Source: a bacterium
Lineage (GTDB): Bacteria; Patescibacteriota; Minisyncoccia; Phycocordibacterales; VMGT01
Assembly (NCBI GenBank): GCA_030697645.1
Contig: JAUYPI010000017.1
Span: forward strand, 1 to 32,490
Length of the DNA stretch: 32,490 bases
Reading direction: 5' to 3'
A program made the position numbers and the translations under genes. This document shows, piece after piece, positions 11,199 through 14,331 of this stretch (the first letter of the stretch is position 1; every line of letters begins with the position of its first letter). Below the pieces are notes generated by a model. That model had not been told where the DNA came from, ran no database searches, and saw only the letters and a program-made list of their open reading frames with translations.

Positions 11199-11834
11199 AT
11201 GTCCACACGAACCGCTCTCGCCCTTGTTGGCGTCATTATCATCTTTGGTGCCGGCGTACTCATTATGCGACGACCGGCGGAAGCACCGACGACAAACGAA
11301 ATGCCATCGAGCGGCCACCTTCCTCCGGCAAACGTGCCCCCTGCAAACCCGGCGCTCCTGCCTCCGAGAAATGTGCCGCCCGCTAGCAACACGCCGCCAC
11401 CAACCCTTCCACCAACATCAAACCTGCCTGCAGCAAATCCTGTGCTATTGCCACCACCCGGGCCGACCACCAATGAGACCACGACTCCTCCCGCAAGCAC
11501 TTTGACTATTCGCATCACCGCGAGCGGTTTCTCGCCTGCGGCCGTCTCGGTGAGTCCAGGCACGCGCGTCACATTCCGCAACGAGAGCGCCGGGATGGAC
11601 GGCGTCGGAGACTCCTGGCCCGCATCGGCCATGCACCCGACGCACAAGCTCTACCCGGGGTCTGACATTAAGAAATGTGGCACTCTTCAGGGCGGGGAAA
11701 AAAATGCCATGTTTGACGCCTGCGGCGCTGTTACCCCCGGCGCTTCATGGAGCTTCACCTTCACTGAACTTGGGTCGTGGAAATACCACGACCACCTTAA
11801 TCCGCTACACACGGGGACGATCGTAGTAGAGTAA
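11199..11834 (+). CDS. Membrane-anchored cupredoxin-like protein
   Basis: This 211-residue protein has an N-terminal membrane anchor (about residues 5-23), a Pro/Asn/Ala-rich linker (26-100) with repeated PPAN/LLPP words, and a cupredoxin-type beta-sandwich (about 101-211). The domain shows TIRITASGFSPAAVSVSPGTRVTFRN, then WPASAMHPTHKLYPG with H146 and H149. It ends with WKYHDHLNPLHTGTIVV (H197, H199, H204). The usual YHC cysteine of blue copper sites is replaced by the YHDH form, so the metal site may be unlike plastocyanin; C160 and C175 may form a disulfide. Predicted outside the cell membrane. It is followed 36 bp later by recG in the same direction. Confidence 0.82.
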   Translation: MSTRTALALVGVIIIFGAGVLIMRRPAEAPTTNEMPSSGHLPPANVPPANPALLPPRNVPPASNTPPPTLPPTSNLPAANPVLLPPPGPTTNETTTPPASTLTIRITASGFSPAAVSVSPGTRVTFRNESAGMDGVGDSWPASAMHPTHKLYPGSDIKKCGTLQGGEKNAMFDACGAVTPGASWSFTFTELGSWKYHDHLNPLHTGTIVVE

Positions 11835-11870
11835 TTTGCCACCGCTCCGAAGGCCGCATACCATGCATGC

Positions 11871-14201
11871 ATGAACCTCGATCCCGACACGCCGCTTGAA
11901 GAGATTTTCCGACTAACTCCGGCGCATAAACAAGCGCTGAGGAAACTCCAGCTCACAAGCGCCCGCGACCTCCTCTATCACTTCCCTGTCCGCTACCAAA
12001 GCGCGGGTGTTGCGCACGCGGTTAGCGAGCTCATCTCCGGCGAGAATGCGATAGTATCCGGCACGCTCGCGAAAATTGAAGCCCTCAAAACATTCCGCCG
12101 CAAGGTTCCGGCGACTAAGGCAGTACTCCGTGATGAGAGCGGCGCGCTTTCGGTAACGTGGCTCCACCAGCCCTACCTCGCGACGATGCTCCGCGAAGGT
12201 ACGAAGGTACGCCTCACCGGGAAAGTTACGACGCAGGGCGGCCGACCCACGATGTTCAACCCTGAAGTGGAGCGCGCCGACGCGGACACGATGCAGAGCG
12301 ACGCCGACTTGCGCGGACCGAACGCAAATACGACGCAGGCAGTACGCGGACAAAACGCGGACACGCCCCTCTTTCCCGTCTACGCCGAGAGTCGCGGCGT
12401 CTCATCGCGCTGGATGTTCTACGCAGTACACAAGCTCTTGGAGAGGGGAGTCCTCGCACTCCTCGAAGACCCGCTGCCCAAGGAGCTGCTCCACCGCTAC
12501 CATCTGCCTGCTCTCGATGCGGCGCTCCGCTACATCCACGCACCGAAAAGCGAGCGGCACAGCATCGCCGCGCGCAAGCGCTTCGCTTTCGAGGAAGTGT
12601 TCCTCATCCAGCTCGCGCGGCTCGGCGAGCGCCAGACGCTCGACGCGCTCCCCTCGTTCCGCATTGAAAAAACGCTCTCCGACCTCGCCGGCTTTCTCTC
12701 ACGTTTGCCGTTTGAGCTGACAGAGGCGCAAAAACGCGCGATTGAAGCTGTGCTTCGCGACTTCGAGAGCGGCCACCCGATGTCACGCCTCCTTGAGGGC
12801 GATGTCGGCTCTGGAAAAACCGCGGTCGCTGCGGCGACTGCGTATGCGATAGTCACCACGCGTCCAAGGAGGCCCGCCGCGAGAGAGGAGCTCGGCGCTG
12901 CGAAACTCGCCTCCGCAGAGGGCTACGACGGAGCAAAGCAGGACTTCGGCAATCTTCAAGTCGCCTATATGGCGCCGACCGAGATCCTTGCCAAACAGCA
13001 CTTCGCCACGTTTATTGAACTTTTTTCCCATCTGCCTATACATATCGGCCTCATAACCTCAAGCGGCTGTAAAAAATTTCCATCAAAAACAAGGCCTGAC
13101 GAGGCGACGGCAATCTCCCGAGTGCAACTGCTACGCTGGGTCGCAAGCGGCGAAATCGCCATCCTCATCGGCACGCATGCGCTTATTCAAAAAAGTGTCC
13201 TGTTCAAGCACCTTGCGTACGTCATTATTGACGAACAGCACCGATTCGGAGTCAGCCAGCGCGCGGCGCTGGTTCGCAGACACACGCAGACTGAACGCAG
13301 AATTTCGCAGAAACAAATCGCAGCGGAGGTGTCCGCGTTAAGTCCGCATCAGTCCGCGTCTATTCCGCATCTGCTCTCTATGACCGCGACACCGATCCCC
13401 CGCACACTCGCGCTCACGATCTACGGCGACCTCGACTTGACACTCCTCGACGAGATGCCGCATGGGAGAAAACCGGTGCTCACTGAGATTCTGGTTGCCG
13501 CGCAGCGCGAGAGAGCCTACGAGCGGATGCGCTCCGAGCTCGCCCGCGGCCGTCAGTGCTATGTGATCTGCCCACGCATTGATGAGCCGGACCCGGAAAA
13601 GGAGCTCGCGCTTCAGGCAAAGTCGGTGAAAGAAGAGGCGGCGCGGCTCAGCCGCGATGTCTTTCCACGCCAGAAAATCGAAGTGCTTCACGGCGCCCTG
13701 ACCCCGGCTGTGCGCGAGGCGACGATGCAGAGATTTGCTGCAGGCGAAGTACACATTCTTGTCGCAACTTCTGTCGTCGAGGTCGGCGTCAACGTGCCGA
13801 ATACAACCGTGATCTTGATCGAAGGTTCCGAGCGCTTCGGGCTCGCGCAGCTACACCAGCTCCGCGGCCGCGTGCTCAGGAGCACCGACCAGGCGTATTG
13901 CTTTGCACTCACCGAGAGCCGCTCAAAACTCGTCGCCGAGCGCCTGCGTGCTCTCAAAACCGCAAAAAACGGCTTCGAGCTCGCGGAGCTCGATCTCAAG
14001 ATCCGCGGCCCGGGTGAGCTCTCGGGTGCTCGCCAGTGGGGCCTCTCCGACGTCGGCATGGAGGCGCTGAAAAACATCAAAATGGTCGAGGCCGCGCGGA
14101 CAGAGGCCGCGCGGCTCATCAGGGAAGATCCGGAGCTCGAACGTCACCCGTCACTTCGAGCCCTTGCCGAGAGCAGACAGACCGCTATTCACTTCGAGTG
14201 A
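11871..14201 (+). CDS. recG: ATP-dependent DNA helicase RecG
   Basis: RecG reverses stalled forks and processes branched DNA. The protein has an N-terminal wedge/OB domain (VSGTLAKIEALKTFRR ... LTGKVTTQGGRPTMFNPE). Walker A is GDVGSGKT at residues 310-317, followed by MAPTEILAKQHF, the DEQH box at 454-457 in VIIDEQHRFGV, MTATPIPRTLAL, VATSVVEVGVNVPN and the C-terminal QLRGRVLRS block. At 776 residues it is about 80 longer than E. coli RecG. The extra length sits in three loop insertions: residues about 134-163, 330-358 and 467-495. Each is rich in short repeated DNA words and keeps frame. All helicase motifs are intact, so it should work. Confidence 0.96.
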   Translation: MNLDPDTPLEEIFRLTPAHKQALRKLQLTSARDLLYHFPVRYQSAGVAHAVSELISGENAIVSGTLAKIEALKTFRRKVPATKAVLRDESGALSVTWLHQPYLATMLREGTKVRLTGKVTTQGGRPTMFNPEVERADADTMQSDADLRGPNANTTQAVRGQNADTPLFPVYAESRGVSSRWMFYAVHKLLERGVLALLEDPLPKELLHRYHLPALDAALRYIHAPKSERHSIAARKRFAFEEVFLIQLARLGERQTLDALPSFRIEKTLSDLAGFLSRLPFELTEAQKRAIEAVLRDFESGHPMSRLLEGDVGSGKTAVAAATAYAIVTTRPRRPAAREELGAAKLASAEGYDGAKQDFGNLQVAYMAPTEILAKQHFATFIELFSHLPIHIGLITSSGCKKFPSKTRPDEATAISRVQLLRWVASGEIAILIGTHALIQKSVLFKHLAYVIIDEQHRFGVSQRAALVRRHTQTERRISQKQIAAEVSALSPHQSASIPHLLSMTATPIPRTLALTIYGDLDLTLLDEMPHGRKPVLTEILVAAQRERAYERMRSELARGRQCYVICPRIDEPDPEKELALQAKSVKEEAARLSRDVFPRQKIEVLHGALTPAVREATMQRFAAGEVHILVATSVVEVGVNVPNTTVILIEGSERFGLAQLHQLRGRVLRSTDQAYCFALTESRSKLVAERLRALKTAKNGFELAELDLKIRGPGELSGARQWGLSDVGMEALKNIKMVEAARTEAARLIREDPELERHPSLRALAESRQTAIHFE
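12268..12360 (+). repeat. In-frame repeat insertion 1 in recG
   Basis: Four spaced copies of the word GCGGAC lie in this stretch. It encodes an Asp/Asn/Ala/Thr-rich segment between NPE of the wedge domain and LFPVY, where RecG proteins normally have a short loop. The same word occurs on the other strand of insertion 3. Confidence 0.6.
12909..12942 (+). repeat. In-frame palindromic repeat (insertion 2) in recG
   Basis: GCCTCCGC and CGGAGC arms surround a short centre and are followed by CAAAGCAGG. The segment reads ASAEGYDGAKQ and lies between Walker A and the MAPTEI motif, where RecG normally has no such loop. A related repeat at 29683-29713 in the MNT gene reads ASAKGFGGQ in the same frame. 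Confidence 0.65.
13281..13370 (+). repeat. In-frame palindromic insertion 3 in recG
   Basis: The left half has GCAGACT/GCAGAA-type words and the right half their approximate complement (GTCCGCGTTAAGTCCGCA and similar), forming an imperfect long hairpin. The encoded residues lie between the DEQH box region and MTATPIPRT and replace a normally short loop. Confidence 0.6.
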
Positions 14202-14331
14202 CTACTGGCGTACTATAGACATCACGCTATGAAACGGCATCAAAACACATATCGCGAGCGAAACGAGATTTATAATTTGCAATAATTAAGCGACCGCATT
14301 GTTATTGCAAGTAAAGACACCGCGGCACCAC

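Follow-up and report, generated by a model that had tools for sequence, protein, structure and literature searches.

A palindromic loop in the RecG helicase of a patescibacterium as a probable gene-less copy of an in-frame, nuclease-bearing element

The window considered here, a stretch of 32,490 nucleotides (nt) from contig JAUYPI010000017.1 of a member of the Patescibacteriota (assembly GCA_030697645.1), holds a gene for the DNA helicase RecG, whose product carries the Pfam domains RecG_wedge, DEAD, Helicase_C and RecG_dom3_C (Table 1). A preliminary description of this DNA reported that loops of recG are made of GCGGAC-type words and that all of the helicase motifs remain. Both statements are borne out: the motifs GDVGSGKT, DEQH and TATPIPR are legible in the translation and the core is intact, while the runs of words, when compared with shuffled sequence, and our own reading of the alignment confirm two loops of this composition. 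The second of these, which follows the DEQH box, is the main subject of this work. Its description as word-built was correct as far as it went, but was incomplete, as the words form an inverted pair and lie at the site where relatives carry a nuclease-coding element.

Table 1. Positions of recG, its word-bearing loops and the parts of the second loop (aa, amino acids)
Feature	Position	Strand	Basis
recG, encoding the ATP-dependent DNA helicase RecG (776 aa) in which the inserts lie	11871..14201	+	Pfam and NCBIfam matches
One-direction word array filling the linker between the wedge/OB domain and the LFPVY segment	12268..12366	+	Linker survey, 68 RecGs
Loop ahead of GNLQVAYMAPTE, extended to 29 aa (median 7)	12861..12947	+	RecG alignment; array in the window not clear
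Left arm, four CGCAGA words at 13276, 13286, 13297 and 13307, 10/11 nt spacing, post-DEQH loop	13275..13312	+	
Centre of the inverted element; in relatives a GxxExxY nuclease domain of ~125 codons presumably lies here, between the arms	13313..13330	.	
Right arm, four GCGGA words, 10/11 nt spacing	13331..13371	-	

On the + strand the second loop reads GC[AG]GA four times and then TC[CT]GC, the - strand form of this word, at 13332, 13343, 13353 and 13364, and the final word of the right arm takes in the Pro-His codons of the host (TTCCGCAT). The left arm has the same position as the left arm of the chimeric RecGs described below, in which a GxxExxY domain lies within the helicase. Between QRxxL and PHLLSMTATP the window has 44 residues, compared with about 20 in relatives without the insert, so that this is not a conserved, family-wide loop devoid of any relation to repeats. 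The 68 RecGs aligned for the tree and the linker survey include genomes chosen for a long loop and are thus not a random sample; genome G057, which has no single RecG open reading frame (ORF), was excluded. In 1,000 dinucleotide shuffles of recG the longest run of words was one in 853 cases, two in 145, three in 2 and four in none, and the pattern GCGGACN{3,6}GCGGAC is matched three times in the window against an expectation of 0.04. The two arms align in inverted orientation with a score of 26, which 4 of 2,000 shuffles attained (28 being the highest shuffled score), and the words therefore carry more signal than the complementarity of the arms. This post-DEQH loop has the anatomy of the element found in relatives, its CGCRGA words being inverted and spaced at 10/11 nt; its 44 residues contain no nuclease domain.

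In the RecGs of genomes G023 and G042 the same loop runs to about 170 residues and includes a GxxExxY domain, which scores 115.1 and 110.9 bits against TIGR04256 (cut-off 35) and 114.9 and 107.5 against PF13366 (cut-off 22). Among the 397 genomes of the order there are nine such RecG chimeras and five chimeras of LepA, the latter with the insert directly before DTPGH, and all 14 are free of internal stops. Of 297 genomes surveyed, 269 had RecG, and the element is present in the post-DEQH loop of at least 11 of the 269, of which eight are gene-bearing (G119 with divergent words) and three gene-less (the window genome, G000, together with G038 and G180). Loops were read in this survey for selected loci and for 21 split genomes; G137 had no single ORF, and G144 and G215, with two RecG matches, were left unread.

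When eight aligned domains served as the query in a single search of 84,980 species genomes, 110 relatives were returned, and the best 80 of these were kept. Nesting within another gene, assigned by the stop-to-stop frame, accounts for 66 of the 80: 30 in RecG, 28 in LepA and 8 in other proteins, with 13 standing alone and one unclear (L222). RecG and LepA were recognized by sequence motifs and the other hosts by Pfam, save for L227, which was assigned by its likeness to L220. Pfam placed these hosts as GatB, transketolase, an E1-E2 ATPase, a pyridine nucleotide reductase with an NDH2 C-terminus, O-antigen ligase, a family 2 glycosyltransferase, a second glycosyltransferase just below the cut-off that has two PDDEXK_3 domains, and LepA; DHFR, also named by Pfam and lying at a contig edge (L080), is the tenth host protein family. 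With three chimeras found in the order search only, the 30 RecG loci of the scan make up 33 distinct genes, the other six of the nine order-search chimeras being the same genes as scan loci and merged with them (the LepA copies of both sets are unmerged). In all 33 a complete GxxExxY PD-(D/E)XK domain lies in frame just after DEQH, nearly always between inverted arms. Judged by their record labels, nearly all of the best 80 loci belong to Patescibacteria or bacteria, with three from Omnitrophota and one from Nanoarchaeota. L174, in a record titled Nanoarchaeota archaeon, has the nuclease within a frame that resembles LepA; as LepA is bacterial, the contig may be mis-binned. The glycosyltransferase-like ORF at L160:2897-5482 has two nested PDDEXK_3 domains with differing flanks, which suggests two word types in one host. 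Viral contigs, scanned once, yielded 45 pattern matches but not one relative, and a viral origin of the element was rejected.

The arms of the nested copies are built from the same kind of word. At 65 nested loci the upstream arm contained 190 forward and 9 reverse words and the downstream arm 10 forward and 186 reverse, compared with 48 forward and 43 reverse in 130 control stretches of the same host DNA. The consensus is ACGC[AG]GA[CAT], and successive words are spaced at 10 nt (112 times) or 11 nt (61 times), a phase that suggests a protein that reads one face of the helix. Downstream words fall mainly in two reading frames (103, 79 and 4) and upstream words in all three (70, 46 and 74); the latter indicates that the spacing is set by the DNA and not by codons or protein. 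Pairing of the inverted arms beat all 40 shuffles at 21 of 30 RecG loci, 18 of 27 LepA loci, all 8 with other hosts and 33 of 40 stand-alone loci, and at stand-alone loci an arm matches the partner within its copy more closely than it does 89% of the partners in other copies. The word type follows the nuclease clade: CGCrGA was found at 51 of 67 loci (the 66 nested plus the unclear L222) and CACGGA at one, while the 42 loci filed as stand-alone (including L080) had ACGAAT in 16 cases, CACGGA in 5, CGCrGA in 3 and none of these in 18. Stand-alone GxxExxY genes, among them those at L086/L078, L091, L120 and L121, are flanked by long inverted arms whose words are specific to the copy. L078 has a perfect 32-bp arm pair, and at some stand-alone loci the right arm appears by eye to extend into the start codon of the gene that follows.

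GxxExxY, P-D, ExK and Q are invariant in all eight aligned copies of the nuclease domain, and in 53 copies G, E, Y, P, E, K and Q are invariant with D at 90% or more; the catalytic residues are kept. A Q-x-x-x-Y pair, which we take to be a mark of the RecB/lambda-exonuclease/Cas4 branch, is also invariant. The domain was modeled from 53 sequences with a predicted local distance difference test (pLDDT) score of 94.4. The best Foldseek match was lambda exonuclease (E 6.6e-4), but with a root-mean-square deviation (rmsd) of 14.1, and LHK-Exo matched at E 1e-3 with an rmsd of 3.9. A VIA search gave the Cas4-type SSO0001 at Z 8.7 over 99 residues and 4.8 A, and several restriction enzymes at around 7.5. 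These matches of the predicted fold support the PD-(D/E)XK superfamily and not a particular branch of it. A Holliday-junction resolvase was considered and rejected, as phmmer with one GxxExxY domain against the PDB gave only weak matches to T7 endonuclease I (E 0.39 and 0.98), and in the structure search T7 endonuclease I was absent among the 50 matches listed and archaeal Hjc, at Z 6.2, ranked below the restriction enzymes and the Cas4-type protein. In a model of the chimeric RecG of L155 (27 sequences, pLDDT 79) the nuclease at residues 477-592 and the RecG core are predicted to be ordered, while the word-coded residues 446-472 and 595-607 are mostly below pLDDT 50, as is the linker between wedge and helicase in which the first array of the window lies.

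The element has moved apart from its host gene. On a tree of the 68 RecGs the gene-bearing insert requires 8 changes (at least 7 by the starred branches), compared with 8.6 for shuffled labels, and its presence is therefore scattered. The nuclease domains cluster by host protein, with 7 changes for the RecG label against 24.4 when shuffled and 7 against 23.4 for LepA, from which it appears that spread to the same site is common and that switches of host are fewer. At L155 and L208 the RecGs are 0.85 identical and the inserts only 0.59, whereas at L179 and L185 the inserts are 0.82 identical and the RecGs only 0.54. G079 and G140, of one genus, have sister RecGs, but their nucleases fall among those from other families (support 100/95 and 86/85); their congener G180 has arms only and no gene. 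In DNA alignments of L155 with L208, and of G079 with G140, identity is lost at the first word and regained at the last. Comparison with empty sites in congeners shows about six residues replaced between the outermost words, and no target-site duplication was seen there by eye. The last word overwrites host codons: of 36 distinct filled RecGs, 24 have CCG as the proline codon before CA, compared with 12 of the 64 empty ones (p 3e-6, kinship uncorrected), with TCCGC at that place in 14 of 36 and 3 of 64, respectively, set against an overall use of CCG for proline of 33% in filled and 24% in empty RecGs (the set before duplicates were merged).

Arrays of words without the gene are also found outside the RecG loop. 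The 1.03 Mb genome of the window has six matches to GCGGACN{3,6}GCGGAC, three of them in recG, and a genome-wide repeat was therefore rejected as the source of the arrays in the window. A looser pair, GCRGAMN{2,6}GCRGAM, gave 28 matches in this genome against 24 in the control, hardly above it, and a three-word pattern gave 8 against 0; two of these 8 belong to a single intergenic array at G000:C20, and one each in C14 and C13 seem to be, or may be, chance. That array, at G000:C20:32098-32134 (L037, about 1099-1135), has four CGCAGA-type words and lies just 5' of another ORF. In the order, the three-word pattern occurs in 41 of the 397 genomes and its backward control in none among the matches listed. 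A GxxExxY gene is present in 25 of the 41 array-bearing genomes and in 31 of the 356 array-free ones (Fisher odds ratio 16, p 5e-14, kinship uncorrected). In G048, 10 of 12 distinct arrays are in frame within open frames of at least 257 aa, and the hosts comprise RecG (in the third of the loops in Table 1, before GNLQVAYMAPTE), GatB, Tgt, ThrS, PheS, GlyRS and a PcrA/Rep-like helicase. Positions were compared by eye: the GatB array occupies that of the nuclease in L209, G018 shares the ThrS array, and G056 has the Tgt array turned the other way round. The ThrS and Tgt sites are common to more than one genus. With gene-less arrays in so many genes, the RecG of the window, which has one single-direction and one inverted array, is a case of a wider pattern. 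The four-word arrays that lie in frame in these hosts, and in IleS as well, are at L254, L257, L258 and L260-L263 (G048), L247 (G018), L234 (G056) and L238 (G042).

The other two loops of the window RecG bear less directly on the element. In the first, between about 12275 and 12362 of the + strand, GCGGAC or near-words can be followed by eye at intervals of 10-11 nt, with two degenerate positions. The preliminary description took this loop as a repeat insertion; the words are there, but the linker is family-wide, being present in all 68 aligned RecGs with a median of 22 aa (5-95% range 17-33) against 32 in the window. A clean insertion was rejected on this ground, and the loop appears instead to be a mostly word-built replacement of a variable linker, with a net gain of only about 10 aa. 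A third repeat-derived segment had been proposed at 12909-12942. The gain in length is real, the loop at 12861-12947 being enlarged by about 22 residues, but in the window it holds a single word pair (TCCGCAGA at 12912) and no clear array; the same loop in G048 has a clear array of four words. Directly 5' of recG, an ORF at 11199-11834 (+) seems by eye to encode a secreted protein that is small, resembles cupredoxins and includes a Pro/Asn-rich stretch.

We consider that the second loop, at 13275-13371, is probably a gene-less copy, either a relic or a non-autonomous sibling, of an in-frame mobile element of Patescibacteria; the gene has more likely been lost than not yet gained. The full element has about four ACGCRGA words, spaced at 10/11 nt, as its left arm, followed by a GxxExxY PD-(D/E)XK domain and an inverted right arm. 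It would be translated within the host protein, with the words as unstructured linkers, the nuclease folding by itself and the host fold kept, and the host protein may well remain active. The nuclease would recognize the helically phased words and break or process DNA at cognate or word-bearing sites. Repair would then copy the element in, so that it replaces what lies between the outermost words in the manner of homing. Survival would be limited to copies that are in frame and sit in tolerant loops, and loss of the nuclease would leave paired or single arms, as in the window. More tentatively, there may be a whole class of unspliced in-frame homing elements, in which a GxxExxY nuclease with phased arms enters tolerant loops of RecG, LepA, GatB and others and leaves gene-less arrays behind, the words being both recognition site and linker. 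With the same reserve, the element could be to palindromic in-frame repeats, those of Rickettsia among them, what an autonomous element with its own gene is to copies that lack one.

A number of observations weigh against this account. The genome of the window, which is 96.5% complete, has no GxxExxY match of its own, and no movement was observed. Complementarity of the arms falls short of all 40 shuffles at 9 of 30 RecG and 9 of 27 LepA loci, and three or more of the counted words are lacking at 16 of the 67 loci that comprise the nested ones and L222, and at 18 of the 42 stand-alone ones. Some of the arrays that co-occur with a GxxExxY gene lie within the nuclease element itself, in genomes that are related. 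The identities of host and insert are correlated (Mantel r 0.39, with 0 of 2,000 permutations as high), which means that part of the history of the insert is vertical. The RecG-borne nucleases fall to one side of a branch with a support of only 33/66 in one tree, and need 7 changes in another analysis. Matches of the model in the PDB are weak, as the best Z of 8.7 is near the noise level stated for the tool, for which Z of 7 to 8 is common.

Among other explanations, the one that deserves attention, unlikely as it appears, is that of a permissive loop and a passenger, in which words akin to repetitive extragenic palindromic (REP) sequences or miniature inverted-repeat transposable elements are moved by some other enzyme and GxxExxY is merely caught cargo. 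The loop does accept unrelated inserts, as seen in the K-rich loops of genus group f86 and in L130 (G241), where the post-DEQH loop of RecG has a different, CCCCCTTTTTCAAAGGGGG-type inverted repeat in frame, so that it may be a general landing place; moreover, 16 of the 41 array-bearing genomes have no GxxExxY, and arrays may thus spread or persist without it. What speaks against mere cargo is that word type goes with nuclease clade, CGCrGA in the nested set and mostly ACGAAT in stand-alone genes, that the latter also have inverted arms in the 33 of 40 cases that beat all shuffles, and that arrays co-occur with the GxxExxY gene. It is much harder to credit that the nuclease is a useful domain gained to work with its host protein, the words being simple linkers. 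The nuclease residues are kept in the eight aligned copies and RecG is a DNA-repair protein, as such a gain would have it, but no function is common to hosts as diverse as LepA, GatB, transketolase, O-antigen ligase, a P-type ATPase and DHFR, the presence of the insert is scattered, upstream words occur in all frames, and words-only arrays are found in many more genes.

Nor is there much to recommend an element that acts in RNA, of the kind for which rRNA intervening sequences and translational bypass elements are precedents, with the arms forming a hairpin in the mRNA that would be excised, spliced or bypassed by the ribosome. The arms are inverted and could pair in RNA, yet at none of the 66 nested loci is the frame closed within the insert (by definition) and the 14 chimeras of the order search are free of stops, which splicing or hopping would not need. 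An Rfam search of 11800-14300 in the window found no group I or II intron or other RNA family, but only a sub-threshold match to a long non-coding RNA (16.4 bits against 40). Local slippage, by which codons of a disordered loop would expand in tandem with no mobile element involved, is also very improbable for the second loop: the arrays do sit in disordered or variable loops, but inverted orientation, a 10/11-nt spacing that breaks the codon frame, recurrence at the same loop in distant species and a gene between the arms are at odds with home-grown growth. The inverted gene-bearing copies speak against slippage for the second loop, and for the first it is possible.

If the proposal of an in-frame mobile element is right, a selfish element that bears a nuclease resides, unspliced, inside essential proteins, and words that serve as protein linkers double as DNA words for binding or repair. 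This would provide a concrete engine for in-frame palindromic repeats, would explain odd long loops in RecG, LepA, tRNA synthetases and other proteins of Patescibacteria, and would suggest what a nuclease family so far catalogued without a function is likely to do. A more conservative filing would be as a variant of the in-frame palindromic elements.

Our search of the literature on GxxExxY, PDDEXK_3, in-frame palindromic insertions, RecG of Patescibacteria or Parcubacteria and the Rickettsia palindromic elements (RPEs), in which coverage of subscription journals was thin, found no account of the element. RPEs and inteins are the closest known systems, and neither fits. RPEs are described as palindromes of about 150 bp that lie in frame in working protein genes at unrelated loci and are translated into a conserved peptide (PMC10969869, PMC3733652). 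In the parts of these accounts drawn on here, no gene for movement is named for RPEs, and by these descriptions they are set apart from the present element, with its nuclease-coding copies and its word unit of 10/11 nt (PMC10969869, PMC3733652). The likeness is that the second loop of the window is also palindromic and in frame in a working gene. Inteins resemble the element in being nuclease-coding segments in frame in conserved proteins, at the same site in distant species. Inteins splice, however, and no Hint or other splicing family was found among the Pfam matches of two chimeric RecG stretches and nine whole host ORFs (threshold 1e-3); the element, for its part, sits in tolerant loops, has a PD-(D/E)XK nuclease of the GxxExxY type and is flanked by inverted word arms. 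The nested domain is a member of the GxxExxY family (TIGR04256/PF13366) well above the curated cut-off, and the descriptions of that family, which give its role as unknown, state neither the nesting in hosts nor the word arms. Palindromic amphipathic repeat coding elements (PARCELs) are also palindromic coding repeats that spread horizontally, described as tandem amphipathic repeats of 25 residues in ORFs of unknown function (PMC2996958); they differ, so far as that source describes them, in having no nuclease and another sequence pattern (PMC2996958). Finally, REPtrons are reported to consist of a gene for a REP-associated tyrosine transposase (RAYT), an HUH enzyme, flanked by inverted repeats, along with many gene-less repeats (PMC3733652). 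The element shares with them a gene between inverted repeats and gene-less relatives elsewhere, but its enzyme is of the PD-(D/E)XK type, and most of its gene-bearing copies in the scan lie in frame within other genes.

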